Origin: Chthonomonadales bacterium
Lineage (GTDB): Bacteria; Armatimonadota; Chthonomonadetes; Chthonomonadales; CAJBBX01
Direction: 5' to 3'
NCBI GenBank assembly: GCA_027459625.1
Contig: DAIDHP010000019.1
Span: forward strand, 1-64,000
Length of the DNA stretch: 64,000 nt
Shown piece by piece: positions 7,760 through 55,193 of this stretch; position 1 is the first letter of the stretch, and each line of letters starts with the position of its first letter. Made by a program: the position numbers and the translations under genes. A model generated the notes under the pieces. It saw only the letters and a program-made list of their open reading frames with translations, made no database searches and was not told the origin of the DNA.

Positions 7760-7774
7760 TGGCATGCAATTTGC
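7760..7774 (+). promoter_or_regulatory. Sigma-54 (-24/-12) promoter of the first PEP-CTERM gene
   Basis: TGGCATG-CAAT-TTGC followed by A matches the sigma-54 consensus with the required GG-N10-GC spacing. It lies 153 bp upstream of the GTG at 7927 in an AT-rich spacer. It is one of six such sites in the window. Confidence 0.8.
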
Positions 7775-7926
7775 AATATTGTAATTTAGTTTGAGTTACC
7801 CCTAATCCGTGAAAATCACGTTCGGATACCGGATCATCCACTCGGTTCAAGATCGTGAGCGCGAATGCATTAAAAGTATCCATATCAATCCAGTAGTATT
7901 TAAAAAAATGAAAAAAGGAGAGAAAG

Positions 7927-8637
7927 GTGAAACTTAATTACCATGTATTGTTGTCGGCAATCTTCGCGATGGTTTTAAGTATTTTTGTAAGCGTGGGGTC
8001 CGGCGCTCAGATGCTTGAGATTACCTCACGTACGAGCTTGGGGGGAACCGATATAGTGGATTGGGGTCAGTTTGGCATAAATACGGTTTTCCAACAAGAT
8101 AGTTTCTTATCTAGTAACGGGCTCACGGGCCAAATTAGCGACAGCAGCAACTCTTTATTAGAGATACTCCAGCAAGAAAACGGCTGGGGGGGTAATTTCA
8201 CTCAAGGTGATTACGTGCTGTGGGATCAGACAAGCAGCGGGTCTCATCTGAACATCTCCTTCAGCACACCCGTATCCACTGCGGGAGCCAACATCCAGTC
8301 GGATTTCTACGGACCTTTCAACGCTACGATATCCGCATATGATTCAAGTAGTAATCTCCTTGCCACGTATACCGAATCAGGCGATTCCAATGGAAACAAC
8401 GATGGTTCCGCGATTTTTCTGGGGGTTTCCAGCCCCACGTCGAACATTTCCGTAATTCAATACACAACGGATTCGAGCACAGGCAATTATGACTTCGCCA
8501 TCAACCAGCTTGGAATCAGGCAGAATGCCTCAACCCCCGTTCCAGAGCCGGGCGATCTCCTCTTCCTTCTCGCGGCTGGAACGCCCGGGTTGGCGTTGCT
8601 CCTGAAGAGACGATATTTCCGTATTCAAAAGGGATAA
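7927..8637 (+). CDS. PEP-CTERM sorting-domain protein, copy 1
   Basis: A 236-residue exported surface protein. It starts at GTG 7927, with AGGAG six bases upstream. The signal peptide is about residues 1-27 (ending SGAQ). The body is a beta-rich domain of unknown function, with 'GLTGQISDSS', 'LNISFSTPVS' and 'AGANI' strands. The tail is a typical exosortase signal: VPEP near residue 204, a hydrophobic helix, then KRR. Exosortase is expected to cleave the tail after export and attach the protein to the surface or matrix. It is closely related to the gene at 11969, including long stretches of near-identical DNA, and more distantly to the frameshifted gene at 14999. A sigma-54 promoter precedes it and a strong terminator follows. 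Confidence 0.88.
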   Translation: MKLNYHVLLSAIFAMVLSIFVSVGSGAQMLEITSRTSLGGTDIVDWGQFGINTVFQQDSFLSSNGLTGQISDSSNSLLEILQQENGWGGNFTQGDYVLWDQTSSGSHLNISFSTPVSTAGANIQSDFYGPFNATISAYDSSSNLLATYTESGDSNGNNDGSAIFLGVSSPTSNISVIQYTTDSSTGNYDFAINQLGIRQNASTPVPEPGDLLFLLAAGTPGLALLLKRRYFRIQKG

Positions 8638-8656
8638 ATCACGCCTCTCACGCGGC

Positions 8657-8702
8657 AAGCGCAGGATCGGGGAGCGCACCCCATCCTGCGCTTTTGGTTT
8701 TT
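8657..8702 (+). terminator. Rho-independent terminator of PEP-CTERM gene 1
   Basis: An 11-bp stem AAGCGCAGGAT/ATCCTGCGCTT (8657-8667 with 8683-8693), extended by an inner GGGG/CCCC, is followed by a T-rich run. It lies 20 bp after the stop codon. Confidence 0.9.
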
Positions 8703-8851
8703 GGGGGAAGTTTGGATTTAACGATCCGCCGGGCATGGGATCGAGTGAGGGCGTATCAAAGCCGGCATCAGTGCGGAAATTGGGTAAGTCACTAGTCTCC
8801 GACGCTTCACATGATTTCATCATCGGGGTAATCGAAGTAAAATACATGTCA

Positions 8852-11884: not shown

Positions 11885-11899
11885 TGGCACGCATCTTGC
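11885..11899 (+). promoter_or_regulatory. Sigma-54 (-24/-12) promoter of the second PEP-CTERM gene
   Basis: TGGCACG-CATC-TTGC followed by A is a perfect consensus site, 70 bp upstream of the ATG at 11969. An AT-rich stretch (TTATTAAAAATATATAAC) lies just upstream. Confidence 0.85.
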
Positions 11900-11968
11900 A
11901 TTTATTAAAATTACCGTCGAGTAAAAATCCGTTATGGCGGTGACCATACCACTCATAAGGAGAGAAAG

Positions 11969-12682
11969 ATGAAATTTAGTTCTCATGTAGTATTGTCGAC
12001 AATCCTTGCGGTAGTTTTAGGAATTTTTATATGCTCGGGGTCCGGCGCTCAGATGCTTGAGATCACCTCGCGCACCGGTTTGGGAGGAACCGACTTGGTG
12101 AATTGGAGTCAGTTTGGCCCAACTAATACCACCTTAACCGGTCTTTCCAATTACATATCCAATAACGGGCTCACGGGCCAGATTGGCGACAGCAGCGCCG
12201 CATCCTTGGAGATACTCCAGCAAGAAAACGGCTGGTCGGGTAATTTCACTCAAGGTGATTACGCGCTGTATGATCAGGGTAGCGGGTCGAATCTGAACAT
12301 CTCCTTCAGCACACCCGTATCCGCTGCGGGAGCCAACATCATGTCGAACCCGTATGGTTTTTTTAACGCTACGATAACCGCATATGATTCAAGTAGTAAT
12401 CTCCTTGCCACGTATACCGAACTCGGTAATTCAAATGGAAACAACGATGGTTCCGCGATTTTTCTGGGGGTTTCCAGCCCCACGTCGAACATTTCCCTAA
12501 TTAAATACACAACGGATACGAGCGTAAATAGCACATATCCCGGCTTCGCAATCAACCAGCTTGGTATCAGGCAGAATCCCTCAACAGCCGTTCCGGAGCC
12601 AGGCGATTTAGCTTTCCTCCTTGCCGGTTTCCTCCCAGGATTGGCTTTTCTAATGAAGAGACGTTATGCCAAAGCCGTATGA
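11969..12682 (+). CDS. PEP-CTERM sorting-domain protein, copy 2
   Basis: A 237-residue exported protein. AAGGAG lies six bases before the ATG. The signal peptide (to about residue 27), beta-rich core and C-terminal VPEP-helix-KRR signal match copy 1 almost throughout; the segment 'SNGNNDGSAIFLGVSSPTS' is identical in both proteins and nearly identical in DNA. Differences cluster at the N-terminal third, including a 'LTGLSNYIS' insertion-like stretch. It is probably the product of a recent duplication. The likely role is a surface or matrix protein processed by an exosortase encoded outside the window. Confidence 0.88.
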   Translation: MKFSSHVVLSTILAVVLGIFICSGSGAQMLEITSRTGLGGTDLVNWSQFGPTNTTLTGLSNYISNNGLTGQIGDSSAASLEILQQENGWSGNFTQGDYALYDQGSGSNLNISFSTPVSAAGANIMSNPYGFFNATITAYDSSSNLLATYTELGNSNGNNDGSAIFLGVSSPTSNISLIKYTTDTSVNSTYPGFAINQLGIRQNPSTAVPEPGDLAFLLAGFLPGLAFLMKRRYAKAV

Positions 12683-14927: not shown

Positions 14928-14942
14928 TGGCATGATATTTGC
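14928..14942 (+). promoter_or_regulatory. Sigma-54 (-24/-12) promoter of the third PEP-CTERM gene
   Basis: TGGCATG-ATAT-TTGC followed by A, 57 bp upstream of the ATG at 14999. The promoter looks intact although the gene is frameshifted. Confidence 0.8.
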
Positions 14943-14998
14943 AACACATGATATTAAAGGGACTGGATTCCCTCACTTTCAAGATGGAGGTAACTATC

Positions 14999-15708
14999 AT
15001 GCTTTTCAAGAAGAGAGTAATTGCCGTATTCGCGTCCGCAACGTTCATGATTTTCTGTATGAGCAAGACAGCCAAGACGCAGGTGTTTTTTATTGGTGAC
15101 AGAGGGAGTTTGAATGCGACGGATTCAGTGGATTGGAGCCAATATGGAACAGGGCGAAATTGATTTCAGACCCATCCAATTTCAACTCATTGGGTGGAAT
15201 CACCGGTACCATTAGCGATTCAATGGACGGTCAATTATCCATTAATAAATCCGCTGATGGCTGGTGGGGGAATCTGTTGCCACACGGATCGATAATTTTG
15301 TGGGATTGGACAGGTAATAGCAGTTTGAACATCACATTCGATACTCCCATATCATCGGCGGGGGCGAATATCATGCCGTATAATGGGGGAGGGTATACGG
15401 CAAGCATATCAGCCTATGATAGCCATAATAGCTTATTAGGCATCTATAGCGGAGCAGGATATGCAGATTCCTCGAGTGGCCTTCCCGCCGTGTTTTTAGG
15501 TGTATCCAGTGACACGCCGAATATTTCAAGGATTGATTTTAAAATGGTCAACAGAGGAGATTCATTTGCAATCAATACGTTAGACATAAAATATGATCCA
15601 TCCGCTCCCGCAAAATCTGTTCCGGAACCCGGGTGTTTACCGTTTCTTTTATCCGGTGTTTTTCCCGGATTGGCGTTCCTGTTAAAGCGGCGATTATCAT
15701 TAGCCTAA
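14999..15708 (+). pseudogene. PEP-CTERM sorting-domain protein, copy 3, frameshifted
   Basis: The ATG at 14999 has TGGAGG upstream. It codes for a signal peptide and the conserved 'ATDSVDWSQYG' segment, then the frame closes at 15163. From about 15150 another frame carries on with LISDPSNFNSLGGITGTISDS, the beta core, the AGANIMP motif, and ends VPEPGCLPFLL-helix-LKRR, a complete sorting signal. One lost base (or two gained) in 15145-15165 would explain it. It is clearly related to copies 1 and 2 but more diverged, so this is an older paralog. Unless ribosomal frameshifting occurs, only a 54-residue exported peptide is made. Confidence 0.8.
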
Positions 15709-21134: not shown

Positions 21135-21136
21135 TC

Positions 21137-22357: not shown

Positions 22358-23185
22358 CTATCGAGTTATTTTCCCCCATGCAGTGTTTATGCCGTCCAAT
22401 GCCCATACGGCTGGATTTCCGAAGGGCTCGGGAGTTATGGGTCCATCATATCCAATGGTATTTAAAGCGTTTAGAAATCCCGGCAGATCAATCACGCCCG
22501 TCGCTCCTGGAAGGCATCGGCGATGGTCGAGGTATTCATCCATCGAGACCCCTGCTGGCGCGTCGCTTACATGCACATAGACGATATCTTTTGGTTGCAG
22601 TTTGAGGATATCCTTCACGCTCCCTCCGGAGGTGTGCCAATGCCAGCAATCGAGCAGCAAACCTACATTCGGCCCGATTTCTCTCGCCATATCCATCATG
22701 GCGTCCAAAGTATAAATGAATGGGTATTTAAACGCATCGCGGGATGTTTTCGGGCCGACGAACTCCAAGCCTAGCCGGCAATCGTGCTCCGCCAAAATCT
22801 CCGAGATGGGCTTGAATCGCTGAATATGGAAGGCTCGATTTTCCTCTAACGTCCTGTCGTTGGACCCCGGCGTGATCCAAGTGCTGGTTCGGGAGCAACC
22901 CAATTGCTGGGAAGCCGAGGCGAACCTTGGCAGAGCGCGCAAACCTTCCCTCCATCTCTCTTCCGGTCCGCGCCAATCCACGGGCAGCCCCCATCCGGCG
23001 GGCCATAGATGCGCTTCGCAGAACATCTTTCTTACAGCGTTGGAGCCGTCCTTGTCTATCAAGTCGGCAACTTCCTGTATGCTGAATTCCAATCCGTCGT
23101 AACCGGTTTTGCTCGCAATTTCCAACGCTTCGTGCAGGTTTTTAACCGCGATTCCCAAGGCCCATGGTGACAAACATCTATACAT
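22358..23185 (-). CDS. Sugar phosphate isomerase/epimerase family TIM barrel
   Basis: A 275-residue xylose-isomerase-like barrel. Marks are 'ASKTGYDGLEFS' near the N-terminus, 'CRLGLEFVGPKT' with a metal-ligand Glu, 'NVGLLLDCWHWHTSGG' with Asp and His, 'DIVYVHVSDAP', and 'YDGPITPEPFG' with the last Glu. It resembles enzymes acting on inositol- or hexose-derived ketoses. It follows the rfaE2/rfb genes after 122 bp but may be transcribed separately. It is one of three such barrels in the window, and not obviously a recent duplicate of the others. Confidence 0.85.
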   Translation of the reverse strand: MYRCLSPWALGIAVKNLHEALEIASKTGYDGLEFSIQEVADLIDKDGSNAVRKMFCEAHLWPAGWGLPVDWRGPEERWREGLRALPRFASASQQLGCSRTSTWITPGSNDRTLEENRAFHIQRFKPISEILAEHDCRLGLEFVGPKTSRDAFKYPFIYTLDAMMDMAREIGPNVGLLLDCWHWHTSGGSVKDILKLQPKDIVYVHVSDAPAGVSMDEYLDHRRCLPGATGVIDLPGFLNALNTIGYDGPITPEPFGNPAVWALDGINTAWGKITR

Positions 23186-23307
23186 CCTCTCTCTCCTTTG
23201 ACCGGAAATATTTAAAGCAATGGCATCTTTCGCTTACTTTGATGAATATTGGACGGATGCTTACCCGTATGTCTGATATCCGTCTGCATTTGGCTGAAAC
23301 TTTGCAT

Positions 23308-23814
23308 CTAAGGGAGGGCGGCGTGAAGTTGGATGATTTTATCGATGATGTTTGTCGTGGATTTGCCCTCCACCAGCCCCACAACGACCACTTTCCCCCC
23401 GAAACGCTCCACCGTTTTCGCTTCCGGCAGATCCTCCGCGCGATAGTCGCCGCCTTTCACATGAATACCGGGTTTCACTCTTTCGATTAGCCGATCCGGG
23501 CGCAGTTCATCGAAGAGACAGATGTAATCCACGCTCGCCAAGTGCGATAGCAATTCCGCGCGTTCCCCTTCGGGGACTATAGGGCGCTTGTCCCCCTTCA
23601 GCAGGCGAACGGATTGGTCGCTGTTAAGCCCTACGACGAGCAGATCTCCCATCATTCGGGCTTGCAAAAGATAACGCACATGTCCCACATGGAGTACATC
23701 GAAGCACCCGTTTGTGAAGACGATTTTGTCTCCCTTTTTTCTTCGTTCGTTAAGAATGCTTTCAAGCTTGTCCGCTATGACAACCTTGTTTTGTATACCG
23801 TTCAGGTCGGACAT
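23308..23814 (-). CDS. rfaE2: D-glycero-beta-D-manno-heptose 1-phosphate adenylyltransferase
   Basis: Transfers AMP from ATP to heptose-1-phosphate to give ADP-heptose for lipopolysaccharide core or other surface glycans. At 168 residues it is the stand-alone C-terminal half of the HldE/RfaE enzyme. The nucleotidyltransferase signature is FTNGCFDVLHVGHVRYL (HxGH-type), with VVGLNSDQSV, KGDKRPIVP and EGKSTTNII downstream. It starts 3 bp after the rfbB stop, so the genes are co-transcribed. The kinase half and the isomerase/epimerase genes of the pathway are not in the window. Confidence 0.92.
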   Translation of the reverse strand: MSDLNGIQNKVVIADKLESILNERRKKGDKIVFTNGCFDVLHVGHVRYLLQARMMGDLLVVGLNSDQSVRLLKGDKRPIVPEGERAELLSHLASVDYICLFDELRPDRLIERVKPGIHVKGGDYRAEDLPEAKTVERFGGKVVVVGLVEGKSTTNIIDKIIQLHAALP

Positions 23815-23817
23815 ATT

Positions 23818-24852
23818 TTATAAATCCTCTCCAAGATACGGACCGTAAAACGCCTTTACAAATTGCTGGTATCTCGTTGAGTTCACAATGTCCTCCCACC
23901 AGGATCGATGATCCACATACCACTTCACCGTATTCCCCAACGCCTCGTCGAATGTGGCGGATGGCTTCCAGCCAAGCTTTTCAATTTTTTCGGTATTCAA
24001 GGCGTATCGTTTGTCATGGGACGCTCCGCGAGGATCGGGAATGCGTTTGATGAGAGTTTCGGGTTTGCCCAATGCTTGCAATACCATTTTGGTGACTTCA
24101 ATGTTGGGTCGCTCATTCCCTCCCCCCACGTTGTAGACCTGACCGATCTCGCCATTCAACAGGGCGGTGGCGATTCCGGAGCAATGATCCCGCACAAAAA
24201 TCCAGTCACGCACCTGGTTACCATCGCCGTACAGGGGCAGTTTCTTATCCTGCATGGCTCTGGTGATGAAAAACGGCAGAATTTTTTCCGGAAATTGGAA
24301 CGGTCCGAATGTGTTCGAGCCGCGAGTCACCAAAGCCTTTGTTCCATAGGCGATTTGATGCGCTCGCACCTGCAACTCTCCGCCCGCTTTGCCCGCCGAA
24401 TAAGGGGTTCTCGGCTCCAAAGGATCCGTCTCTGTGAATAACCCACTCTCGATTTCGCCATACACCTCGTCCGTTGAAACATGCAGCATTCTTTCCGCGT
24501 CGTACTTTCGCGAGCACTCAAGAAGGATGCTGACACCTGTAACATTGGAGGATATAAGACCTGTGGGGTCCATCAAACTACGGTCGTTATGGGATTCCGC
24601 CGCGAAATTGAGCACATGCGTGATTTTCTCCCAGCGGAAAATCCCTTCCACAACCGTGACGTCTTCGATTCGACCAGGATAAAACCGAAACCTGGAGTCG
24701 TTTCTCAACTCCTGCATGTTCGCCGGATTTCCAGCGTATGTTAATGCATCCAATACCACCACGCAATCATCCGGATGGTTTTCCATCCAGTACCGCACGA
24801 AATTGGTTCCGATAAATCCTGCGCCTCCTGTGACCAATAGCGTGCGGCTCAT
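23818..24852 (-). CDS. rfbB: dTDP-glucose 4,6-dehydratase
   Basis: Converts dTDP-glucose to dTDP-4-keto-6-deoxyglucose with bound NAD. A 344-residue extended SDR. TGGAGFIGTNFV is the NAD-binding GxxGxxG motif, STDEVYGEI carries the catalytic Thr-Asp-Glu, and PYSAGKAGGE has the YxxxK pair. The C-terminus (HRSWWEDI) is typical. The start ATG overlaps the end of the upstream epimerase gene by 4 bp (ATGA). It works with the rfbA product just upstream. Confidence 0.95.
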   Translation of the reverse strand: MSRTLLVTGGAGFIGTNFVRYWMENHPDDCVVVLDALTYAGNPANMQELRNDSRFRFYPGRIEDVTVVEGIFRWEKITHVLNFAAESHNDRSLMDPTGLISSNVTGVSILLECSRKYDAERMLHVSTDEVYGEIESGLFTETDPLEPRTPYSAGKAGGELQVRAHQIAYGTKALVTRGSNTFGPFQFPEKILPFFITRAMQDKKLPLYGDGNQVRDWIFVRDHCSGIATALLNGEIGQVYNVGGGNERPNIEVTKMVLQALGKPETLIKRIPDPRGASHDKRYALNTEKIEKLGWKPSATFDEALGNTVKWYVDHRSWWEDIVNSTRYQQFVKAFYGPYLGEDL

Positions 24853-25298
24853 AGTTTGAACTCCGAGTGGATCTCCTCATGCCGTATCTCGTCCACCGGC
24901 TCTTTCTTGCCTTTGCCAGCGTAAAGCTTGTCAGGGAAATTCAGAATAAAGGCGTCTTGCTCTCCGATGTTTTCATATGCATGGACCACACCAGGCGGGA
25001 CGATCACCAAGAAGGCGTTTTCCTCGCCCATTTCATACACCTCCTTGAGGATGCCTGTCTCGGATCGGAACCAAAGGGTTAGACGAAATTTACCGCTGAG
25101 AAAGCAAAAGCAGTCTGATTGTGTTATATGCTCATGCGGTCCTCTGGCTACGCCCGGATGAGTTACGGAGAGGTAACCCATCACGGGATGAAATCTTTCG
25201 GGAAGCTCATCTTCGCGAAAAAGTTCGGATAACCATCCTCGGGCATCCTTGAAACGATTCAGCTTGTTTATAACCACTCCTGGTATCTGACTTGTCAT
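24849..25298 (-). CDS. dTDP-4-dehydrorhamnose 3,5-epimerase-like cupin
   Basis: A 149-residue RmlC-type cupin, shorter than classical RmlC (about 180). GVARGPHEHITQSD has the histidine corresponding to the catalytic base region, and VPPGVVHAYENIGEQDAFILN the second cupin motif. The classical motif tyrosine is not evident. Position between rfbA and rfbB, with 4-bp overlaps at both ends, says it acts on a dTDP-4-keto-6-deoxy sugar. It could be a 3,5-epimerase or one of the related 3,4-ketoisomerases; rfbC is likely but I leave the symbol open. Confidence 0.8.
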   Translation of the reverse strand: MTSQIPGVVINKLNRFKDARGWLSELFREDELPERFHPVMGYLSVTHPGVARGPHEHITQSDCFCFLSGKFRLTLWFRSETGILKEVYEMGEENAFLVIVPPGVVHAYENIGEQDAFILNFPDKLYAGKGKKEPVDEIRHEEIHSEFKL

Positions 25299-26359
25299 GA
25301 TATGCTCACCTGACTGTTATCCCCGAGCATTAAACGATATACATGGGGACGCCTTTCTTCTTTTCGAACCTCCACATTCCTGCCGATCAAACTGTCGGAG
25401 ATTCTTTGTTCTATGTTGATGATGGAACTGTGGGAGAGCACGATGCTATGCTCGATTTCGCTATGATGAATGCGTACATCATCGTGAATGGATGTAAACG
25501 GGCCAATATAGGCGTCTTCGATCACGCAGTTCTCCCCGATGATAACCGGACCGCGCACTTCGCTTCTAAGAATGCGGGATCCCTTGCCTATGTCCACTTT
25601 GCCATTCAGGATGGAACTGGCGTCGGCTATCCCGTCCATTCGAAACGAGAGGGTGTCAAGGATGATTCTGTTAGCCTCAAGCATGTCCTCGAGCTTTCCG
25701 GTATCCTTCCACCACCCGTCGATTACATGGGACTTCACCTCGTATCCATGATCGATTAGATACTGAATGGCATCGGTAATTTCGTACTCCCCGCGCGCTG
25801 AAGGGGTGATGGCGTGCACCGCTTCGAAGATGCGCTTATCGAACATATACACTCCTACCAACGCCAGATCGGTTTTAGGTTCCGATGGCTTTTCCACGAG
25901 TTGGATGATTCGATCCCCATCCAACTCCGCTACCCCGAACTCCTGCGGATTTCGAACGTGCGCGAGAAGGATTTGAGCGTTCGGAGTGTGTTGGGAGAAA
26001 TCCTTGACAAGCGGGGTGATCCCATCCTTGACGATGTTATCTCCAAGGTACATTACGAAGGAATCATCGCCGAGGTATTCCTCCGCCGTCATTACCGCAT
26101 GGGCGAGCCCTAATGGAGCGCTTTGAGGGATATAGGTTACATTCACCCCCCACATGGAGCCATCCCCCACGGCGGAACGAATCTCCTCCTGTGTGTCTCC
26201 GACAATGATCCCTATATCATGGATGCCCGCGTTTCGAATGCATTCGATCGCATAATAAAGGATCGGCTTGTTTGCCACGGGTACGAGTTGCTTTGCGCTG
26301 GTGTAAGTGATGGGACGGAGTCGAGTTCCTTTCCCGCCGCTGAGGATTAATCCCTTCAT
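25295..26359 (-). CDS. rfbA: Glucose-1-phosphate thymidylyltransferase, long form
   Basis: Makes dTDP-glucose from dTTP and glucose-1-phosphate. At 354 residues it is the long form, with a C-terminal left-handed beta-helix of hexapeptide repeats (GSRILRSEVRGPVIIGENCVIEDAYIG region), whereas the short rhamnose-type enzyme has about 290. The N-terminal nucleotide motif is LSGGKGTRLRPITYTSAKQL, followed by YLGDNIV and the VEKPSEPKTDLALVG segment. It is the first of four overlapping genes (rfbA, epimerase, rfbB, rfaE2), 44 bp after galE. The long form is often linked to deoxysugar pathways other than plain rhamnose. Confidence 0.93.
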   Translation of the reverse strand: MKGLILSGGKGTRLRPITYTSAKQLVPVANKPILYYAIECIRNAGIHDIGIIVGDTQEEIRSAVGDGSMWGVNVTYIPQSAPLGLAHAVMTAEEYLGDDSFVMYLGDNIVKDGITPLVKDFSQHTPNAQILLAHVRNPQEFGVAELDGDRIIQLVEKPSEPKTDLALVGVYMFDKRIFEAVHAITPSARGEYEITDAIQYLIDHGYEVKSHVIDGWWKDTGKLEDMLEANRIILDTLSFRMDGIADASSILNGKVDIGKGSRILRSEVRGPVIIGENCVIEDAYIGPFTSIHDDVRIHHSEIEHSIVLSHSSIINIEQRISDSLIGRNVEVRKEERRPHVYRLMLGDNSQVSIS

Positions 26360-26403
26360 CTTGCCTCCTTGTCACGCGTGGAATTCGCGTATGCTGTGTA
26401 ACG

Positions 26404-27381
26404 CTAATATTTTCGGTTTGTTTCCCAGTTCCATGCATGGCGGATTATCGCTTCGATATCCGTGTATTTTGGCTCCCAGCCTAGCTCTAGTTTCGCCTTG
26501 GCCGAACTTGCCACCAAACGCGGAGGGTCTCCCTCGCGTCGAGAACCCAATTCAACCGGGATTGTTTTACCGGATACCTTCTCGCAAACGTTTATGATCT
26601 CTCGAACGGAGTAGCCTGTTTCCGATCCAAGATTATAGAAGCCACTCTCTCCTCCGTCGCGTAATCTCTCCAACGCCAAGGAGTGAGCCTGAGCCAAGTC
26701 AAGCACATGGATGTAATCGCGAATGCAAGTGCCATCCGGGGTGTCGTAATCATCCCCAAATATCGTCATCTTGTCTCGCTTTCCGGAAGCCACCTGCAGA
26801 GCGATTGGAATGAGATGGGTTTCCGGGTCATGACTCTCGCCGATATTGCCGTCCGGATCCGATCCCGAAGCGTTGAAATATCGGAGCGCGGCGTAACGCA
26901 ATCCATAAGCCTTGTCATATGCGTTCATGATCTTCTCGCAGAAGAATTTGCTTTCGCCGTAGGGATTGATGGGATTTTGCGGATGCTTTTCATCCATTGG
27001 AACGTATTGAGGGTTGCCGTAGGTTGCGCAGGAGGAGGAGAAAATGAAGTTCCTCACCCCATATTGTCGCATCGCATCCAACAGGCTTAGAGTGGACCGA
27101 ACGTTGTTGTTGTAGTATTTTTCCGGATCGGTGACAGATTCCCCAACGTATGCGAATGCGGCGAAATGCACCACCGCGTCGAGGGGATATTTATTGAACA
27201 GACGATCCAACGTCAATCGATCGCCCATATCGCCAACTACCAAAGGAACGTCCTTCACCGCTCCCCTATGGCCATACACCATGCTGTCGAGAACAACGAC
27301 TTTTTTTCCACGATTGCGCTCATAGAGAACATAGTGGCTTCCTATGTATCCGGCACCGCCGGTGACTAAAATCATGTCCAT
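26404..27381 (-). CDS. galE: UDP-glucose 4-epimerase
   Basis: Interconverts UDP-glucose and UDP-galactose with bound NAD. A 325-residue SDR with TGGAGYIGSHYV, the SSSCATYGN serine motif, and YGESK (YxxxK). The region EGDPPRLVASSAKAKLELGW is diagnostic of GalE. The start may be M1 or M3. It leads the dTDP-sugar genes on the same strand and would provide galactose for the polysaccharide, in keeping with the galactose-type phosphotransferase at 30693. Confidence 0.93.
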   Translation of the reverse strand: MDMILVTGGAGYIGSHYVLYERNRGKKVVVLDSMVYGHRGAVKDVPLVVGDMGDRLTLDRLFNKYPLDAVVHFAAFAYVGESVTDPEKYYNNNVRSTLSLLDAMRQYGVRNFIFSSSCATYGNPQYVPMDEKHPQNPINPYGESKFFCEKIMNAYDKAYGLRYAALRYFNASGSDPDGNIGESHDPETHLIPIALQVASGKRDKMTIFGDDYDTPDGTCIRDYIHVLDLAQAHSLALERLRDGGESGFYNLGSETGYSVREIINVCEKVSGKTIPVELGSRREGDPPRLVASSAKAKLELGWEPKYTDIEAIIRHAWNWETNRKY

Positions 27382-27687
27382 ACCTCTTTTCGATAACAGT
27401 AATTACAAATTCAGGGAATTACCTCCTCATCCCCCATGCCGCATGTTTAAGCGAAGCGAAGAAGTAATAGCCTGAAATAATAAGCGAGCGATGCAACGGC
27501 AAAATTCAGAAAAAAGGTTTATATCTCACACATCACGAAAAACGAAAGCCCCAAGAGACGAATTTTGCATTTGCTAGAAGCCATATATTATGTTTCATCC
27601 CGGGTAAATGTAAATAGGCGCTTTTCAGGGATTTGCTTAAGCTTCAAAAGCTCGTTGATCGTTCACGTTCGGAATTGACCCAACACC
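27382..27687. other. Gene-free spacer upstream of galE
   Basis: 306 bp with no coding frame I believe. It contains a 9-bp inverted pair GCAAAATTC (27499-27507) / GAATTTTGC (27560-27568), the same core as in the larger palindrome at 48223-48308. It presumably includes the galE promoter, but no clear -35/-10 pair stands out. Confidence 0.4.
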
Positions 27688-28446
27688 TCATTTAATGAAA
27701 CGATATTTGAATATCGTCCACAGCGCCACAACACCATCCTTCCAGCCGATCTTTTTACCTTCCTCGTAGTCTCGTCCGGCGTAGGAAATGGGCACCTCGT
27801 ATATTCTACATCGCTTTTTCGCCACTTTTGCAGTGATCTCAGGCTCAAAATCGAATCGGTTTGATTGAATTCGAATGTCTTTGATGATCTCCTTGCGGAA
27901 AACCTTGTAACAAACCTCCATGTCGGTCAGGTTGAGGTTGGTCATCATATTGGAGAGCGTGGTAAGCATCCCGTTCGCCATGCGATGCCAGAATAAGTGC
28001 ACCCGATGCGCCCCGCCGCCGAGAAAACGCGAACCGAAGACGACATCGGCTTTCCCTTCGACAATAGGCGCGATTAAGGAGAAGTATTCCTTGGGGTCAT
28101 ACTCCAGATCCGCGTCCTGAATCAGGACGATATCTCCCGTGCATCGCTCGATGGCGGTTCGAACCGCCGCGCCTTTGCCGCTGTTCCTCTCGTGATAGAA
28201 CACCTTCACATCCGGATATTTGCCCTCAATTTTATCCCGTAAAAGCTCTCGCGTACCGTCGTTAGAGCCATCATCCACCATCACGATCTCTTTTTTAATA
28301 TCAACATCTCTGATACGGCATAGAATTTCCTCAAGAGTGTTCACTTCGTTATAGATCGGCACTAACACTGAGAGCGTGAAATCATGTCCCATGAAATTCT
28401 TTACTGTCATGTTGGCCTCGTAAATTTCCGTATGCCGGTCAGTCAT
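27688..28446 (-). CDS. Family 2 glycosyltransferase, DPM1/polyprenyl-phosphate sugar synthase type
   Basis: A 252-residue cytoplasmic GT2 enzyme. LVPIYNEVNTLEE, the VDDGSNDGT nucleotide-binding motif, QDADLEYDP (DxD) and GSRFLGG are the dolichyl/undecaprenyl-phosphate mannose or glucose synthase pattern. It lacks the C-terminal membrane helices of DPM1-long or GtrB types. The ATG at 28446 overlaps the end of the upstream membrane glycosyltransferase; an ATG at 28410 with GAGG is also possible. It probably charges undecaprenyl phosphate with a sugar used by that GT-C protein. A close paralog lies at 29795. Confidence 0.85.
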   Translation of the reverse strand: MTDRHTEIYEANMTVKNFMGHDFTLSVLVPIYNEVNTLEEILCRIRDVDIKKEIVMVDDGSNDGTRELLRDKIEGKYPDVKVFYHERNSGKGAAVRTAIERCTGDIVLIQDADLEYDPKEYFSLIAPIVEGKADVVFGSRFLGGGAHRVHLFWHRMANGMLTTLSNMMTNLNLTDMEVCYKVFRKEIIKDIRIQSNRFDFEPEITAKVAKKRCRIYEVPISYAGRDYEEGKKIGWKDGVVALWTIFKYRFIK

Positions 28447-29777
28447 TGGCGACAGACTCCATTTTTCTTTACTTCCGATCCGCTCATCGTCTTTCCTGCG
28501 ATTCCGTTCGCCGCCAGTGTGATGAGGATGGGATATAACGGCATGGAATATCGTGCGAACGCCAGAATTGCAGCGTAAATGATATTAAAGTATAGCACGA
28601 CCGCCACTAACGGCGTCACATCCACCCCGCTGGAACGAGCTATTAACACCCCGCGAATCGCTCCCGCTATTGCCAGAATCGCAAAAAAACCAACCAGAAG
28701 CGATTTCGCGGGAGTCTCCACTACATACCAGAAAGTGAATAGCTGGATGATAAACTTCCTGAGAAAGATCAGAGGATGATGCAAAACATCGTTTATCGCC
28801 ACAATGTTCTCTGCTTTCTCTTTTCGAACTTCATTATGAATGCTTTCTTTCATCCCACCAACTATCCTGCCGTTTTTATACGTGAAAAAGGGTATTCCGA
28901 AACGCCGAAGAATCCCGACTTCATATTGATTCGCCTCCCAATCCCAATTTCCTTGAAATTTATCTCGGAGCAGGAAGTATTTGCTTTGCGCGTTGACGTA
29001 TCCCCGCAGGAACTCTCCGCTTGCGTTGGAACTAATGCCCGTGAATTGTCCATTGCTGACGACGTAGTTTCGAGCCATCCAGGGCAAGCATAATACCAAG
29101 ACCATCACAACGCATGCGATTGGGCCAGCAAAGGGTATCGGCTTCCGTTCCCTCTTGTTACGGTACCATATCAATGCGATCAGGGGGTAGGGGAATAGAA
29201 AAGGCACCGGTTTTGCGAGAGCCCCCAGTCCGATCACCAACCCCGTAAGCACTCCGTTTTTGATATTCGGCTCTCTGTAAAATCGAAGCGACAGCCACGC
29301 GATTAAGGTGAAAAGCAACATATCCGTGGCGCCATCGTCCACTACAGGGACATATCGAAGGCATTGAGGCCATATGGCGCAAAGAACACCGGCAAGGATC
29401 GCCACTTTTTCACTGAATAGTTGGCGTGCCATCTGATACACGATAAGACAAGTGAGACCAGCGAAGACGCACTGCAGGAAGAAGACCGGATTGTAAGATT
29501 GAATCCGGTGCACGGGGTTGAAACCGAAAATGTCGAAAACCAATGCGATTATTGCGGGATATAAGGGCGCTCTCCGCATCGTGGGTCCGACGCCAAGACT
29601 AAAACCGTCGCCATGATAAATATGCTCCCCTATGCGACCAAAGGAATCCATGTCGAAAATCTGATGTATTGCAAGAAGCCGTTTGAAAATAACAAATGAC
29701 CAGAGAATTGCAAGGATGAATCCAATCAGGAAGATAATAAAAGCGGTTCGATTAGAGGGTTTTGGATTGGTGCCCAT
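28443..29777 (-). CDS. GT-C (ArnT/PMT-like) membrane glycosyltransferase
   Basis: A 444-residue polytopic membrane protein with about 10-12 hydrophobic helices. The first periplasmic loop has 'IFDMDSFGRIGEHIYHGDGFS' with the acidic pair expected in GT39/PMT_2 enzymes, and MRRAPLYPAIIALVFDIFG resembles the conserved segment after it. Such enzymes transfer sugars from polyprenyl phosphate onto lipid A, glycans or proteins on the outer face. It is flanked on both sides by GT2 enzymes that could make the donor, with 4-bp overlap on one side and 17 bp on the other. Confidence 0.82.
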   Translation of the reverse strand: MGTNPKPSNRTAFIIFLIGFILAILWSFVIFKRLLAIHQIFDMDSFGRIGEHIYHGDGFSLGVGPTMRRAPLYPAIIALVFDIFGFNPVHRIQSYNPVFFLQCVFAGLTCLIVYQMARQLFSEKVAILAGVLCAIWPQCLRYVPVVDDGATDMLLFTLIAWLSLRFYREPNIKNGVLTGLVIGLGALAKPVPFLFPYPLIALIWYRNKRERKPIPFAGPIACVVMVLVLCLPWMARNYVVSNGQFTGISSNASGEFLRGYVNAQSKYFLLRDKFQGNWDWEANQYEVGILRRFGIPFFTYKNGRIVGGMKESIHNEVRKEKAENIVAINDVLHHPLIFLRKFIIQLFTFWYVVETPAKSLLVGFFAILAIAGAIRGVLIARSSGVDVTPLVAVVLYFNIIYAAILAFARYSMPLYPILITLAANGIAGKTMSGSEVKKNGVCRQ

Positions 29778-29794
29778 GAATAGTCCTTTCGAAA

Positions 29795-31421: not shown

Positions 31422-31511
31422 TTACTGAGTCTCCTATAATGCCTAAATGCAGCATTGCGATATGAATATCGCAACAGGATAAGGACTCTTCCATCCTCAA
31501 TCTTATTAACT

Positions 31512-31526
31512 GCAAAAGCCATGCCA
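31512..31526 (-). promoter_or_regulatory. Sigma-54 (-24/-12) promoter of the sugar-phosphate transferase gene
   Basis: On the minus strand TGGCATG-GCTT-TTGC followed by A, 91 bp upstream of the ATG at 31421. AT-rich DNA lies further upstream (31540-31610). Confidence 0.8.
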
Positions 31527-48680: not shown

Positions 48681-49736
48681 TCATGTTTCGAATCCTCCGG
48701 AACTCAAATAATTTGGTTTCATTAACTGAATGCTTATAATGAGTCTGCCCAAAAGTTGGTTCGCATTGGGATTTAACTTGTCGAACTCAATGGCGATCTG
48801 ATAAACGGGGAGTTTTTCAGTATGAGAAATATCCGTCACACGCACTACGCTTCCGGATATGGTGAGCGGGTTTTCAATACTCGACCATTCATTCCCCCAA
48901 CGGACATCCACCCGGGACCCCTTGGGCAGGGGCGTCATGGAGTTCAAAGCCACCCCGCCGAGACTGATATCCCTGCCAAGACCACTGATCTCTTTCCTTG
49001 TGGTTTGTTCCCCGGATATCTCGACCTTGATGGGATAGGAGATTGCGGTGCGGGGATGGCGTCGGCGTTGCCGTCGCTTGATGACGGAGGGCTTGCGAAT
49101 GGTCCATGTCAAGCCATTCTCGTCGATATGTAGCACCGATGATGTGAACTCGTAGAGACCATCCTCGCCTAGTATTCGTATGTCGATCGATTTACTTTTG
49201 ACAGGAAATGCATTGTCGAGGGTGATTTGAAAAGATTCCGGTGCTGTGGAGATCACTTTCGCGGGGATCATCTCTTCGGGAGTGGTCTTGAAACTTCCTG
49301 CCAGAAGGTACTGATCGGGAACGATGGTTTGAAAGGAAAACAAGGGAGGAGCGAAATGGCGTTCTCCGCCACCGGAAATAGACGAACGAATGAGCGATAC
49401 GAGGGTGTCGAGGTCGAATGGCTTGTAAAGAGTCTTCAAACCTCCAGACTCCCAGACACTACCCTCGAGATTTGGCGTTTCATAAGCGGACATAGCTATG
49501 AACGGCGTCCAAGGCGCGGCGGATTTCAAACGGGGTAATGCGGCAATCCCGTCCATATCAGGAAGATGTAGATCCAATAGAACGACATGAAAGGTTTTTC
49601 GAATAAGTAATTTAAGTGCGTCTGTAGCATTGGCTGCGCTATCCACCTCGAAACCGTAATTCAGCAATTTGGCTTCGAGGATCCTGCGGAAATTCTGATC
49701 GTTGTCTACTACCAACACAGATTTGCGGGTAATCAT
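48681..49736 (-). CDS. Receiver-PilZ protein (c-di-GMP-linked response regulator)
   Basis: 351 residues. Residues 1-120 are a CheY-like receiver (VLVVDNDQ acids, phospho-acceptor Asp in VVLLDLHLPDMDG, Lys in LYKPFD). The C-terminal part from about 215 is a PilZ domain: RRQRRRHPR supplies the RxxxR arginines and DISLGGVAL the [D/N]xSxxG motif, so c-di-GMP binding is expected. There is no DNA-binding domain; the output is probably direct control of exopolysaccharide or secretion machinery. It has its own sigma-54 promoter and lies directly downstream of the sigma-54 activator gene. Confidence 0.87.
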   Translation of the reverse strand: MITRKSVLVVDNDQNFRRILEAKLLNYGFEVDSAANATDALKLLIRKTFHVVLLDLHLPDMDGIAALPRLKSAAPWTPFIAMSAYETPNLEGSVWESGGLKTLYKPFDLDTLVSLIRSSISGGGERHFAPPLFSFQTIVPDQYLLAGSFKTTPEEMIPAKVISTAPESFQITLDNAFPVKSKSIDIRILGEDGLYEFTSSVLHIDENGLTWTIRKPSVIKRRQRRRHPRTAISYPIKVEISGEQTTRKEISGLGRDISLGGVALNSMTPLPKGSRVDVRWGNEWSSIENPLTISGSVVRVTDISHTEKLPVYQIAIEFDKLNPNANQLLGRLIISIQLMKPNYLSSGGFET

Positions 49737-49823
49737 TGTTTAATCCTACGGCAAGATGTATCGCTATTTCCTTTCCGAAGGTGAATAACCAGCATTTATA
49801 CCAGCCCTTCATAAAACCTTAAT

Positions 49824-49838
49824 GCAATAAACATGCCA
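49824..49838 (-). promoter_or_regulatory. Sigma-54 (-24/-12) promoter of the receiver-PilZ gene
   Basis: On the minus strand TGGCATG-TTTA-TTGC followed by A, 88 bp upstream of the start at 49736 and just beyond the stop of the activator gene. This lets the activator control its downstream neighbour separately from its own operon. Confidence 0.8.
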
Positions 49839-49858: not shown

Positions 49859-51070
49859 TTATTCGGCTATTTCGCACTCTTTTCTTAAGCGAAGCGGAAA
49901 CATTTCGCAGGTCAGCAGTTTTGTGCCCCTGTCCGCCAATACCACCGCTCGTTCAATTGCGTTCTCCAACTCTCGCACGTTGCCAGGGTAATCGTATTTC
50001 ATCAGGTGTTCCATCGCCTCCGGGGTGCATCCTTTGATCCTTCTACCGTTTTCTCGGTTGTACTTGACGAGAAAATGATCCACCAGCGCGGGGATATCCT
50101 CTATTCTCTCTCTCAAGGGTGGAACGTGAAGTTGCACCACCTGCAGGCGATAGTAAAGATCCTCCCTGAATTTGCGGTTATTCACTTCAATTTCCAAATC
50201 CCGATTTGTTGCCGTTATAAGTCTTACATCCACGTGAAGCGGTCTGGTGCCTCCCACGCGCTCGAACTCCCTCTCTTGAATTACTCTCAGTAATTTCACC
50301 TGAATGGATGGCGGGATCTCGCCCACCTCGTCAAGGAAGAGAGTTCCCTGATGAGCCAGTTCAAAACGTCCGGCCTTTTGAGCGTTTGCTCCGGTGAAAG
50401 CGTTCTTCTCATGCCCGAACATTTCGCTCTCAAGCAGAGTCTCCGTTAGCGCAGCGCAGGATACCGCCACGAAAGGTTTGTTCGCCCTTGGAGAGTTGTA
50501 ATGGAGAGCGCGAGCGATCAATTCCTTGCCCGTTCCGCTTTCCCCGGTGATCAGAACCGTTGCACGGCTGTCCGCCGCGCGTTCAATCAATTTGAACAGT
50601 TCCTGCATCTTGCCGCTGTTACCGACGATGTTATCAAAACGATACGTGGTTTTTAACTGCGCTCGGAGTTCGTAATTCTCTTGCTCGAGAATGCGATTGC
50701 TTAGGGCGTGCTGTATCATGGTGCGCATCTCATCTATGTCGAAAGGCTTGGGGATGTAGTTGTACGCCCCCAGTCTCATGGCTTCGACCGCCGTTTTGAT
50801 CGTGCCATACGCCGTTATCATAATTGCAGTGCAATGGGGCTGCAACTCCTTGACAATTTTCAAGACCTCAACCCCGGTCATATCCGGCATAATAAGGTCG
50901 GATATCAGGAGGTCTATAGTGGTGTTGGATGCAATATCCACCGCCTTTTTACCGCACTCAGCGAGATGGACATCATATCCCTCCTTTTTTAGCATGACCT
51001 CCAGAACGCGACGTATGTTGGGTTCGTCATCCACAATCAAAATGGAATGAGGAGAAACCTGAGCGCTCAT
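49859..51070 (-). CDS. Sigma-54-dependent response regulator lacking a Fis DNA-binding domain
   Basis: A 403-residue NtrC-type activator. Receiver domain 1-120 with phospho-acceptor Asp58 (ISDLIMPDM) and Lys108 (PKPFD). AAA+ domain about 145-370: Walker A GESGTGKE (176-183), sigma-54-contact loop NAFTGA (223-228; the first Gly of GAFTGA is Asn), Walker [12 protein letters not shown], arginine finger FREDLYYRL, and YPGNVREL. After [12 protein letters not shown] only about 20 residues remain. Normal relatives have a further 60-70 with a Fis-type helix-turn-helix. No such sequence is coded in the DNA after the stop. It is downstream of the histidine kinase gene with a 96-bp gap. Confidence 0.92.
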
Positions 51071-51166
51071 GATAATCTCCTCCTTGTTTCATTTGTATAT
51101 TTCATTTGTTAGTTACCGCTGCTCCAATTCACTTCTTGTTCACTTTATGATCCGCTCGCAATAGCC

Positions 51167-53785
51167 CTAAGTGTAAATGTCTGGCAACTCTGTTGTGTAT
51201 TGTTCATTGATGGGAATCAATGGCAAATCTCCACTATATGGCAGTGAGAGGCGGAAGGAGGTCCCGGAGCCCTCTCTTCGAAACACTTCAACATTTCCAT
51301 TGTGATTTTCAACAATTCTCTTCACGATGGAAAGCCCAAGTCCTGTCCCCTTTGTCTTGGTTGTGAAGAATGGCTGGAATATTTTATCGATTTTATCTTC
51401 CGGTATGCCGCAACCCGTATCATCGAACTGAGCGCGGACCATGCCGGCAGGCTCATCCATCGATGTGGATATGGTCAAAGTCCCTCCGACTTTCATGGCT
51501 TGAACGGCGTTGATGATGATATTTCGGATCACCTGTTCGATCTGTTTTCTGTCCACGATTATGTCCGGAAGTCCGTCGGAATGATTGTACTCCACCTTCA
51601 CCCCTGACTCCTGGATGAAGCTGTTTAAAAAACGAACGGACCGATCGACCAGTTCGTTTATGCTGGTTTGCTCCAACCTCATATACATTGGACGCGCGAA
51701 ATCAAGCAGATCCATGGTGATCTGGCTCAACGCATCCACCTCTTCAATGATGATATCCAGAAACTCTCTGAAAGGCGCCTCGTTGGCGTAATCATTTCGT
51801 ATGAGTTGCGCCGCCCCTTTGATGGAACTCAGCGGATTACGCACCTCATGCGCCATTTTCGCTGCAAATTCCCCGATGTCCGCCAGTCTGCGGATATGGT
51901 TCATCTCCTGTTCCATGAGAGTTTCGTGAGTCACATCCTCAACCAATATAACCGCTCCCTGCCTTTGACCCATTCGATCGATAAGCGGGGAAAGAAGGAG
52001 ATTTAAAAATCTCTTCGTATTATCCTTGGTGTGGTAAGGTTGCTTGTAGTGTTGCGCAGCCTCTCCGTCCGTTAAACATTTATTGATGAGCTTCTCCAAG
52101 GAGATAGCCTCCATGGGGGGCAATTCTAACTGTTCTATAAGCTGTTGGCAACTCAACTCCACATGCCTTTGCTCCGTCAAGCCCCATATCTGCTCGAATG
52201 CGTTATTCCATCGGAGTACTTTTCCTTCGGAGTCCAGCACCAGCACTCCTCCGACCATGGAGCGCAATATATTATCGGTCTGATTCGCAAGACGGTTTAT
52301 CTCCTGGTACCTTTGTTCGCGGTCTTCGTATAATTGCGCGTTTTCGATGGCTATGCCTGCCTGATTCACGAATGTGGTCAGAAGGTCCACCGCTTCAGGG
52401 CGAATGATCCTCTCGGAGGAACGGTTATCCGCGACAATCACTCCGATGGTCTGCCCTCTCGATATGATCGGAATGGCTATGAACGCGTTTGCGCCAAGCG
52501 TGCGTGCGAATCCGCGCATGGGTTGCAAGGCGTTTTCGATGTCGTATTCAACAATCGGCATCTGTTTCTTCGCCACCATCCCTATCACTCCTTCACCGAT
52601 CTTCGCCGACGAGGAATGAACGATGTCCTCCTTGTATCCCCTCCAAATCCTAGGGATGTATTTGCGAGCATGCTTGTCATGCAGGTACAGGCAACATCGG
52701 TCAAACTTCACCACATCCACAATGTTGTCAGCAACATGCTCAAGCAGATTGTTGAGATCGAGATGCGAAATCACCGCTTGGGTTAATTCCGAGATCGTGT
52801 AGAGTTCGACCAAGCGGTGATTGACATCATCGTAAAGCTGTTTGTTATTGATCGCCAATGCCGCCTGACTGGCGAAAACCGAAAAGAGGCGCATGTCATC
52901 CGTGGTAAAGTCCGGCAGCGTTTTCCTGCGTCTTATGGATAATACACCAGTGACGACCCCTTTTTCATCCTTCATGGGCACGATCATGGAGGAACCGATA
53001 CCCGGCATGGGAGATACGCCTTCCAGTCTGGGATCGTTTTCCACGTCGGAGATCACCATCGCCTCTCCTGTTTGCGCCACTTTGCCCGCAATCCCTTCTC
53101 CTATCTCTCTTTGCGCTAGATCCACCACCTCTTCGGACAAACCGAAGCTTGCGGCGATTGTCAACGCGTTTGTATCCATGTTCAAACGCATTAAAGAGCA
53201 GGCTTGGGCGTCCATCACCTTGGCGGCTTTCTCCGTAATGATATCCAGGAGTTGTGTTAACTCCATGCTGTCCATCGCCCTGCCAATTTCATAAATGGTG
53301 GACACCTCCCGTATGCTTCTATTTGCTTGTTGATGCAACAATCGGGATTGGTCCTGTAAAAAAATCCTGTCGAAAGCGCTTGAGATAGTCCCTGAAACAA
53401 TCCGCAAGGCATCCTTGGAATGTTGGTTTCTTAGCCCCAGGATCATGAAGGTTCGTGGTGCGAAACGGACGGGCAGGGATTCAAAAAATATCTGATCATC
53501 AGAAGATGAGGAAACCGAAGCTGGGTCGTTTTCAGTCATGAATCTGTAATGCGCAAGGTATTCCAGCGCAAGCCGAGAGGAATCCCCAATGACGCAACGC
53601 GTGGGATTCTTTCCTTGGATATCCATCACCCCGGAATGAATCCATTTCGCGTCGTAGAGAACTCGAAGTGCTAAATCGGATGCTACGGGCGCGGAATCGG
53701 ATCCGGATAGGGTCTCTTGAAGATGTATCAGGGTTTGAAACAGACTTTCATCATCTTCAACCAAGTTCTGATTTTTCATTGTCAT
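51167..53785 (-). CDS. Cytoplasmic GAF-GAF-PAS sensor histidine kinase
   Basis: About 872 residues from ATG 53785 (ATG 53779 also possible; a TTG at 53866 is unlikely). No membrane segment. An N-terminal region of about 150 residues is unassigned; a coiled-coil follows. GAF1 is about 177-318, GAF2 about 347-485, PAS about 500-620. The NtrB-like kinase core has H-box MAHEVRNPLSS (His646), N-box QVIRNIIINAVQAM, and G boxes DDTGCGIPED, FFTTKTKGTGLGL. It should phosphorylate the regulator encoded immediately downstream. Two GAF domains suggest a soluble ligand. It is analogous to PrsK of PEP-CTERM systems, but orthology is not shown. Confidence 0.9.
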   Translation of the reverse strand: MTMKNQNLVEDDESLFQTLIHLQETLSGSDSAPVASDLALRVLYDAKWIHSGVMDIQGKNPTRCVIGDSSRLALEYLAHYRFMTENDPASVSSSSDDQIFFESLPVRFAPRTFMILGLRNQHSKDALRIVSGTISSAFDRIFLQDQSRLLHQQANRSIREVSTIYEIGRAMDSMELTQLLDIITEKAAKVMDAQACSLMRLNMDTNALTIAASFGLSEEVVDLAQREIGEGIAGKVAQTGEAMVISDVENDPRLEGVSPMPGIGSSMIVPMKDEKGVVTGVLSIRRRKTLPDFTTDDMRLFSVFASQAALAINNKQLYDDVNHRLVELYTISELTQAVISHLDLNNLLEHVADNIVDVVKFDRCCLYLHDKHARKYIPRIWRGYKEDIVHSSSAKIGEGVIGMVAKKQMPIVEYDIENALQPMRGFARTLGANAFIAIPIISRGQTIGVIVADNRSSERIIRPEAVDLLTTFVNQAGIAIENAQLYEDREQRYQEINRLANQTDNILRSMVGGVLVLDSEGKVLRWNNAFEQIWGLTEQRHVELSCQQLIEQLELPPMEAISLEKLINKCLTDGEAAQHYKQPYHTKDNTKRFLNLLLSPLIDRMGQRQGAVILVEDVTHETLMEQEMNHIRRLADIGEFAAKMAHEVRNPLSSIKGAAQLIRNDYANEAPFREFLDIIIEEVDALSQITMDLLDFARPMYMRLEQTSINELVDRSVRFLNSFIQESGVKVEYNHSDGLPDIIVDRKQIEQVIRNIIINAVQAMKVGGTLTISTSMDEPAGMVRAQFDDTGCGIPEDKIDKIFQPFFTTKTKGTGLGLSIVKRIVENHNGNVEVFRREGSGTSFRLSLPYSGDLPLIPINEQYTTELPDIYT

Positions 53786-54213
53786 ATCCACTGTTATTGT
53801 CAAAAGGGATACGCAACGTCCTGTTAAAAGGGATGAGATGACCCGTGGGAGTCCTCTCCTCTTCAAATAGGGCGATTAAATTGCTTCCCGGCAATTGCCT
53901 GCCTGCAAAATATATATCCGTATGCCATTATATCACATTCAATCTTTCGTAACAATTAAATGCAATTTCAAAAATCATTAAAAAAGCCTTATGGGAGTTG
54001 CATGACAAGCATGCGAAGCCATGGGCGCTAACCATTCAACGGAAGCGCGGGATCGCTGTATTCGGGCTATTTTTATCATGAAGCGAATGCAGCGGGATTG
54101 TCTTCCTTCGCATCGGATTGAGATAGATATCATAATATGAGTCGTGAGACTGAATCGATTTGCATTTTGACGAACGTAAAAATCAAAAAAGGAAATCAGG
54201 AAAGGATAGGAAT
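53786..54213. other. Spacer between divergent kinase and dehydrogenase genes
   Basis: About 428 bp with no credible frame (the upstream extension of the kinase frame has no good start). It should hold divergent promoters; no clear consensus pair is visible. Confidence 0.4.
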
Positions 54214-55089
54214 ATGGATGTTGGATTGATTGGGATGGGCTTGATGGGGCGTTCAATGACGAGTAAATTGCTGGAAAAAGGATATCGCGTGCATATTCAT
54301 AATCGAACAAGGGCAACTTCGGCCAAACTAGTTGAAATAGGCGCGATATGGGAGAACACCCCTCGCGCCGTAGCGGAAAAATCCGACGTGATAATGTCCA
54401 TTGTCAAGGATCCTCAAGCGGTGAGAGATATCGCATTGGGCGAAAACGGAGTTCTTTCGGGAATGAGCGAAGAGAGCGTCTTTGCGGAGATGAGCACGGT
54501 CTCCCCTGCATGGGCCGAGGAGTTTGAGGGGATTGCGAAAGAGAGAGGTCTCCGTTATATCCAGGCTCCCGTTTTGGGCAGCGTCCCGCAAATAAACGAG
54601 GAGAAGTTGCTCGTTTTTGCGGGAGGGGATGTTTCGGACGTGGAGAGGATCGAGCCCGTTTGGAGCGCATTCAGCGCCAAAATTTGGAGGATGGAGAAAC
54701 CATCCCAATCAGCAGGCGTGAAACTGGCATGTAACATGCTCGTGGCTCATATGACCATGGGATTGGGGCAATCCATTCTATTCGCCGAGAAGAATGGCGT
54801 GGACGGTTCCGTTTTTTTGGATATTCTTTCAAACTCCATACTTGGATGCGGGCTTTACTCCGGCAAAGGCAATCTCATCCAGTCTCGACAATTCCCTCCT
54901 AGTTTCACGCTTGAAAACATGCTGAAGGACCTTAACCTGGTGCAACAGACTGCTACGAAAGAAGGCATACCCCTTCCGCTGCACGCACAGATTCGAGAGT
55001 TTTTCATCTCGGCGGTAAGCCAAGGATACGGAGAAGAGGATTACACGGCGGTGTTCAAAGTGTTGGAGAATTTGACACGGCTGAGTTAA
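54214..55089 (+). CDS. NAD(P)-dependent beta-hydroxyacid dehydrogenase (HIBADH/GLYR1 family)
   Basis: 291 residues from ATG 54214, with AAAGGATAGG upstream. The N-terminal Rossmann motif is VGLIGMGLMGRSM. AEMSTVSPAWAEE matches the substrate-binding DxSTxxP region, and the catalytic Lys lies in GVKLACNML. The C-terminal helical domain (ENMLKDLNLVQQTATKEGIPLPL) is typical. HNRTR after the second strand suggests preference for NADP. Possible roles are reduction of succinic or glyoxylic semialdehyde or 3-hydroxyisobutyrate oxidation. It is a single gene before the sigma-54 promoter of the exopolysaccharide operon. Confidence 0.9.
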   Translation: MDVGLIGMGLMGRSMTSKLLEKGYRVHIHNRTRATSAKLVEIGAIWENTPRAVAEKSDVIMSIVKDPQAVRDIALGENGVLSGMSEESVFAEMSTVSPAWAEEFEGIAKERGLRYIQAPVLGSVPQINEEKLLVFAGGDVSDVERIEPVWSAFSAKIWRMEKPSQSAGVKLACNMLVAHMTMGLGQSILFAEKNGVDGSVFLDILSNSILGCGLYSGKGNLIQSRQFPPSFTLENMLKDLNLVQQTATKEGIPLPLHAQIREFFISAVSQGYGEEDYTAVFKVLENLTRLS

Positions 55090-55178
55090 TTTCCTTGCAT
55101 GTGCGGAGCGGCGGCGCCCCGTTACTATGCATCATGAATCGGGGATGATAACGGCCCCAGGTTCATGTCGTGGCAAGT

Positions 55179-55193
55179 TGGCATGCAACTTGC
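55179..55193 (+). promoter_or_regulatory. Sigma-54 (-24/-12) promoter of the exopolysaccharide operon
   Basis: TGGCATG-CAAC-TTGC followed by A, 135 bp upstream of the first gene at 55328. It differs by only two bases from the site of PEP-CTERM gene 1 when the last spacer base and the following base are compared. Confidence 0.8.

Follow-up and report, generated by a model that had tools for sequence, protein, structure and literature searches.

Six near-identical sites in a 64-kb window of Chthonomonadales DNA (the whole stretch that was analysed) very likely represent the −24/−12 promoters of a single matrix-building sigma-54 regulon, with a kinase–regulator pair encoded in the same window as its enhancer-free switch. 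The best reading of the sequence is sigma-54 control of PEP-CTERM and EPS genes through a group-5-type activator, in a phylum other than Proteobacteria.

Sites of the window and the genes they precede

The motif TGGCAYG-N4-TTGC has exactly six matches within the 64-kb window, whereas in 100 dinucleotide shuffles of the window it averaged 0.07 matches and never appeared more than once. N4 is the only spacing present, and no copy with an N2, N3, N5 or N6 spacer was found in the window. All six copies follow the sigma-54 −24/−12 promoter form TGGCAYR-N4-TTGCW with its strict spacing. Each lies between ORFs and is correctly oriented ahead of a gene, the distance between the T of TGG and the start codon being 71–167 bp (Table 1). 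The positions and strands are those reported in the first-pass annotation, whose description of the sites as intergenic, directed towards a gene and close before its start was likewise borne out. Its claim that no further intergenic site exists agrees with the nearest other candidates in the window (54725 and 59746), which carry one mismatch each and both fall within ORFs.

Table 1 Features of the window related to the proposed sigma-54 regulon
Feature	Position	Strand	Basis
Putative sigma-54 −24/−12 site TGGCATGCAATTTGCA, 5′ of PEP-CTERM gene 1	7760..7775	+	Motif and spacing search
PEP-CTERM protein 1, 236 aa, tail ...VPEPGDLLFLLAAGTPGLALLLKRRYFRIQKG	7927..8637	+	ORF; weak PF07589 match
Putative sigma-54 site TGGCACGCATCTTGCA, 5′ of PEP-CTERM gene 2	11885..11900	+	Motif and spacing search
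PEP-CTERM protein 2, 237 aa, paralogue of protein 1	11969..12682	+	ORF translation
Putative sigma-54 site TGGCATGATATTTGCA, 5′ of PEP-CTERM gene 3	14928..14943	+	Motif and spacing search
PEP-CTERM gene 3, frame change in assembly	14999..15708	+	ORF and same-genus comparison
Sugar genes 3′ of EPS transferase, same strand, possible operon	22358..30529	−	ORFs; names by inspection
EPS polyprenyl glycosylphosphotransferase (Bac_transf; TIGR03025 above cut-off)	30693..31421	−	Profile search
Putative sigma-54 site TGGCATGGCTTTTGCA, 5′ of EPS initiating transferase operon	31511..31526 (5′ end 31526)	−	
Receiver-PilZ protein, 351 aa, RxxxR and DxSxxG c-di-GMP-binding signature	48681..49736	−	
Putative sigma-54 site TGGCATGTTTATTGCA, between activator stop (20 bp before) and receiver-PilZ gene	49823..49838 (5′ end 49838)	−	
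Sigma-54 activator: receiver, AAA+ and AAA lid, NAFTGA loop, no HTH_8	49859..51070	−	Profile search and alignment
GAF-GAF-PAS-HisKA-HATPase histidine kinase, adjoins activator	51167..53866	−	Profile search
Putative sigma-54 site TGGCATGCAACTTGCA, 5′ of glycosyltransferase cluster	55179..55194	+	Motif and spacing search
EPS cluster	55328..63501	+	ORFs and profile search

All three PEP-CTERM genes had been named as targets, and a site does precede each of them; the third gene comes with a reservation, as its frame changes near codon 57 in the assembly. An intact 242-aa orthologue is present in a same-genus genome (L193), with 93% and 97% identity in the two frames, and the window copy is either a pseudogene or the product of an assembly error. 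A Mutator-family transposase (window 1121–2410) and a DUF772 transposase fragment (8932–9633) lie near the PEP-CTERM genes. Named by inspection, the sugar genes 3′ of the EPS transferase encode two GT2-like proteins, a membrane protein, GalE-, RmlA-, RmlC- and RmlB-like proteins, a nucleotidyltransferase and a sugar isomerase-like protein. The EPS cluster holds genes for a 306-aa protein of no known kind, a hexapeptide acetyltransferase, glycosyltransferases and a polymerase/ligase-like membrane protein. From the domains of the receiver-PilZ protein, we infer a link of the regulon to c-di-GMP.

The motif across the genome and in relatives

The genome assembly (4.55 Mb, 114 contigs, 96.55% complete; the window is contig C19) contains 17 exact sites, compared with three for the reversed control. 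Coherent targets follow 14 of them, six in the window and eight elsewhere. These 14 sites serve 13 putative transcription units, of which eight are PEP-CTERM genes; the remaining units are the EPS sugar transferase, the receiver-PilZ gene, the glycosyltransferase operon, a prepilin and a membrane protein of no known kind. Among the 11 sites outside the window, those before PEP-CTERM genes are on C4, C11 (two genes, three sites), C41 and C49. The C16 site lies before a prepilin gene whose product has N_methyl and DUF1559 domains, and the C22 site precedes a 217-aa membrane protein without a Pfam match (L024:8328-8981), whose predicted fold (pLDDT 77) has no PDB match with E < 0.001. Homologues of this protein (L197, L205, L226) share many invariant residues, and the gene is a predicted sigma-54 target in four family genomes. 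The remaining three sites were discounted as probably due to chance: those on C6 and C35 fall within ORFs, and the one on C12 adjoins a hairpin at a distance of about 450 bp from an ORF.

PEP-CTERM genes follow nine of 16 TTGCW sites and 2.1% of the positions sampled in the same DNA, a comparison that understates the contrast because the sampled DNA was picked around the sites. The genome-wide scan that yielded the 17 sites was proposed as a check in the first-pass annotation; none of the three exosortase genes of the genome has one of these sites close by. No such site occurs within 400 bp of eight other PEP-CTERM-like genes, and the proposed regulon thus takes in roughly one half of the PEP-CTERM genes found in the genome. 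The idea of one regulon is upheld by the coherent targets of 14 of the 17 sites. One PEP-CTERM gene is preceded by two sites 145 bp apart (L020:9098 and 9243), and this double site is kept in a same-genus genome at a distance of 149 bp (L202, minus-strand offsets 2910 and 3059).

The comparison panel comprised 61 relatives. The presence of rpoN and that of an activator agree in 59 of the 61 genomes (Fisher p 1e-13, kinship ignored, as in all statistics of the panel). Genomes with rpoN carry a mean of 7.2 motif sites (control 1.6) and those without it 2.35 (control 1.45), and in the own family the numbers are 11.6 versus 1.0. The excess of sites diminishes in relatives that lack rpoN, and two genomes depart from this pattern. 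G022 has 12 exact sites against none for the control, and no rpoN or activator was found in its 95% complete genome; G025 has rpoN and shows no motif excess. Exosortase presence is weakly tied to rpoN (p 0.10, 61 genomes), and several relatives without rpoN keep an exosortase.

The gene order activator, site, receiver/PilZ recurs in G001, G006, G015 and G020, and also in G033, which belongs to another order. A site lies 20–93 bp after the activator stop in eight genomes (G001, G006, G015, G016, G020, G028, G033 and G047), and G024 and G060 have near matches. Where the flank is readable, a receiver-PilZ-type frame comes next, not everywhere, as another gene follows in G003 and G025. The EPS sugar transferase is a predicted sigma-54 target in five relatives (G001, G004, G006, G012 and G015). 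Other genes preceded by sites include PEP-CTERM genes, a glycosyltransferase (G004), a Wzz/tyrosine-kinase-type gene (G015), a Wzy-type ligase (G006) and exosortase itself (G020); none of the seven sites read in G033 was found to precede a PEP-CTERM gene. By inspection, a small cold-shock-type gene follows a site in G015 and G012, which represent two families of the order (L232, L259), and a site in G004 (L217) precedes a sigma-70-family-like gene. Some targets in G015 (L233, L240) and G024 (L243, L246, L247, L248) have PEP-CTERM-like tails in which PEP is replaced (PEL, PAPS, PSPS or PSPE), possibly as variant sorting signals.

A single activator and the choice of promoters

The genome has one copy of rpoN with an intact RpoN box (ARRTIVKYRE). 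The PF00158 search gave one strong match, the window activator, with a score of 246 bits; all others reach 34 bits or less and were regarded as ordinary AAA proteins rather than as further sigma-54 activators. No other true sigma-54 activator was found in the genome, in an assembly whose completeness and number of contigs mean that a second one could be missing. No Fis-type HTH (HTH_8) is present in this activator, which stops after the AAA lid, and its receiver and AAA+ domains without a DNA-binding domain are the architecture of group 5. The NAFTGA loop corresponds to the GAFTGA loop for sigma-54 contact, and N at its first position is accepted for sigma-54 activators (PMC3162934). The activator is 97% identical in MAG MAS4.bin79 (L032). 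Sixteen genomes of the order have an activator, one each, and every one of these proteins ends 222–229 residues past Walker A, without an HTH, whereas the phylum proteins with HTH_8 extend 273 or more residues past this point. HTH_8 occurs in nine of 26 scanned members, and no short member has a C-terminal extension in the alignment. Short activators are also present in other families (G033, G035, G041, G047, G054, G055 and G060; 242 residues in G042), as well as in G048 and G049, both of which have a second activator.

The histidine kinase lies just 5′ of the activator in the same orientation and is presumably its cognate partner; the pairing recurs in G001, G003, G006, G015 and G024. Hydropathy analysis of the kinase revealed no clear membrane spans, the sole hydrophobic stretch being a marginal one near residue 461. 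In the mechanism that we infer, the kinase would phosphorylate the regulator, and the AAA+ ring of the regulator would remodel sigma-54 RNA polymerase. Since the activator lacks a DNA-binding domain and is the sole one found, its action is most likely from solution and on every promoter bound by sigma-54. Without such a domain it could not choose promoters by enhancer sites, and as the single activator of the genome it would have no need to choose. The regulon would be defined by the −24/−12 sequence alone, with no enhancer sites, and the activator probably turns on the complete set of matrix genes at the same time. The co-expressed output would comprise exported PEP-CTERM proteins, EPS glycosyltransferases, the receiver-PilZ c-di-GMP effector, the prepilin and the conserved membrane protein.

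Real sigma-54 promoters could also belong to a split regulon, in which a DNA-binding partner or another regulator brings the activator to chosen promoters. The paired promoters before one gene, kept in the same-genus genome, leave room for such promoter-specific control. We consider this arrangement unlikely, as no shared upstream k-mer rose above shuffles in the 14 promoters (a search run without a positive control) and the genome has a single strong sigma-54 activator domain.

The first-pass annotation had compared the system with PrsK/PrsR, where PrsR, an enhancer-binding protein with a Fis-type HTH, is proposed to activate sigma-54 at proteobacterial PEP-CTERM genes via an upstream enhancer box. 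The promoter before the PEP-CTERM genes is indeed of the same type (PMC1569441), and so is the EPS association, with the kinase–regulator pair beside EPS genes. Nevertheless, a standard PrsK/PrsR system is quite improbable here. The regulator scores 387 bits with the PrsR model TIGR02915, below the cut-off of 502.6, and has no HTH; no PrsK (TIGR02916, cut-off 300 bits) was found above the cut-off in the 61 genomes, clear membrane spans are missing from the kinase, and the k-mer search in the 14 promoters, with the same lack of a positive control, gave no common motif that could represent an enhancer box. The sigma-54 regulon is retained from the original interpretation, with a single rpoN, a site excess that follows rpoN and targets that recur, and the PrsK/PrsR label is given up. 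The first-pass annotation left out that the likely activator is encoded in the window itself, is the sole one found and has no DNA-binding domain.

The sigma-54 identity of the motif is read from its sequence, and the sites might instead bind another DNA-binding protein; the exact −24/−12 consensus match, the strict N4 spacing and a motif excess that tracks rpoN across relatives make this very improbable. Chance occurrences with a fitted story, which three of the 17 genome sites resemble, are refuted as an account of the whole by six window sites against 0.07 expected, by 17 against three in the genome and by the same target classes and synteny in relatives, in line with the argument against chance made at the outset.

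Relation to known sigma-54 systems

It is rather likely that sigma-54 acts as a dedicated matrix switch in Chthonomonadales and some other families of the phylum, with one rpoN, one enhancer-free activator without a DNA-binding domain, and a co-controlled receiver-PilZ protein as a possible c-di-GMP link.

In Proteobacteria, a sigma-54 box was found before 99 of 167 PEP-CTERM genes, in a system that also comprises an enhancer motif, the Fis-type regulator PrsR and the transmembrane kinase PrsK; the box was stated as common to Proteobacteria only (Haft et al. 2006, PMC1569441). For pepA of Aquincola tertiaricarbonis, RpoN1 dependence is known by experiment (PMC9850573). The system described here shares with PrsK/PrsR the sigma-54 promoter before PEP-CTERM genes, the EPS link and two-component control. 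In contrast, its activator lacks an HTH and is not PrsR, neither a PrsK nor an enhancer motif was detected, and one activator appears to serve the whole regulon, EPS, PilZ and prepilin genes included, in another phylum. In the literature, we found no paper that combines Armatimonadota and RpoN, and Armatimonadetes and PEP-CTERM were found together only in a LuxI/LuxR survey. The wiring seen in 2006 in Proteobacteria with a DNA-binding PrsR seems to exist in another phylum with a non-DNA-binding activator.

The closer likeness in the activator itself is to FlgR of Helicobacter and CtcC of Chlamydia, which belong to group 5 without an HTH (PMC7175178), also called type Ic (PMC3162934), and likewise combine receiver and AAA+ domains with no DNA-binding domain (PMC7175178, PMC3162934, PMC7482065). 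AtoC is the closest NCBIfam model of the window activator, and CtcC is likewise closest to E. coli AtoC. Unlike in those systems, the predicted regulon here concerns the extracellular matrix rather than flagella or chlamydial late genes, the activator has a NAFTGA loop and the kinase is a soluble-looking GAF-GAF-PAS protein, and the organism is, as far as can be told, not a host-restricted pathogen. Sigma-54 has been described as a controller of the bacterial exterior in a survey whose main text does not mention PEP-CTERM (PMC3162934), and the present EPS and surface regulon fits this trend. With one rpoN and one activator, the sigma-54 regulon may be readable from promoter sequence, which would make uncharacterised targets, the 217-aa membrane protein among them, candidate matrix-assembly factors. 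The system may also serve as a natural setting in which to test enhancer-free sigma-54 activation, for which the other known examples are pathogens, Helicobacter and Chlamydia among them.
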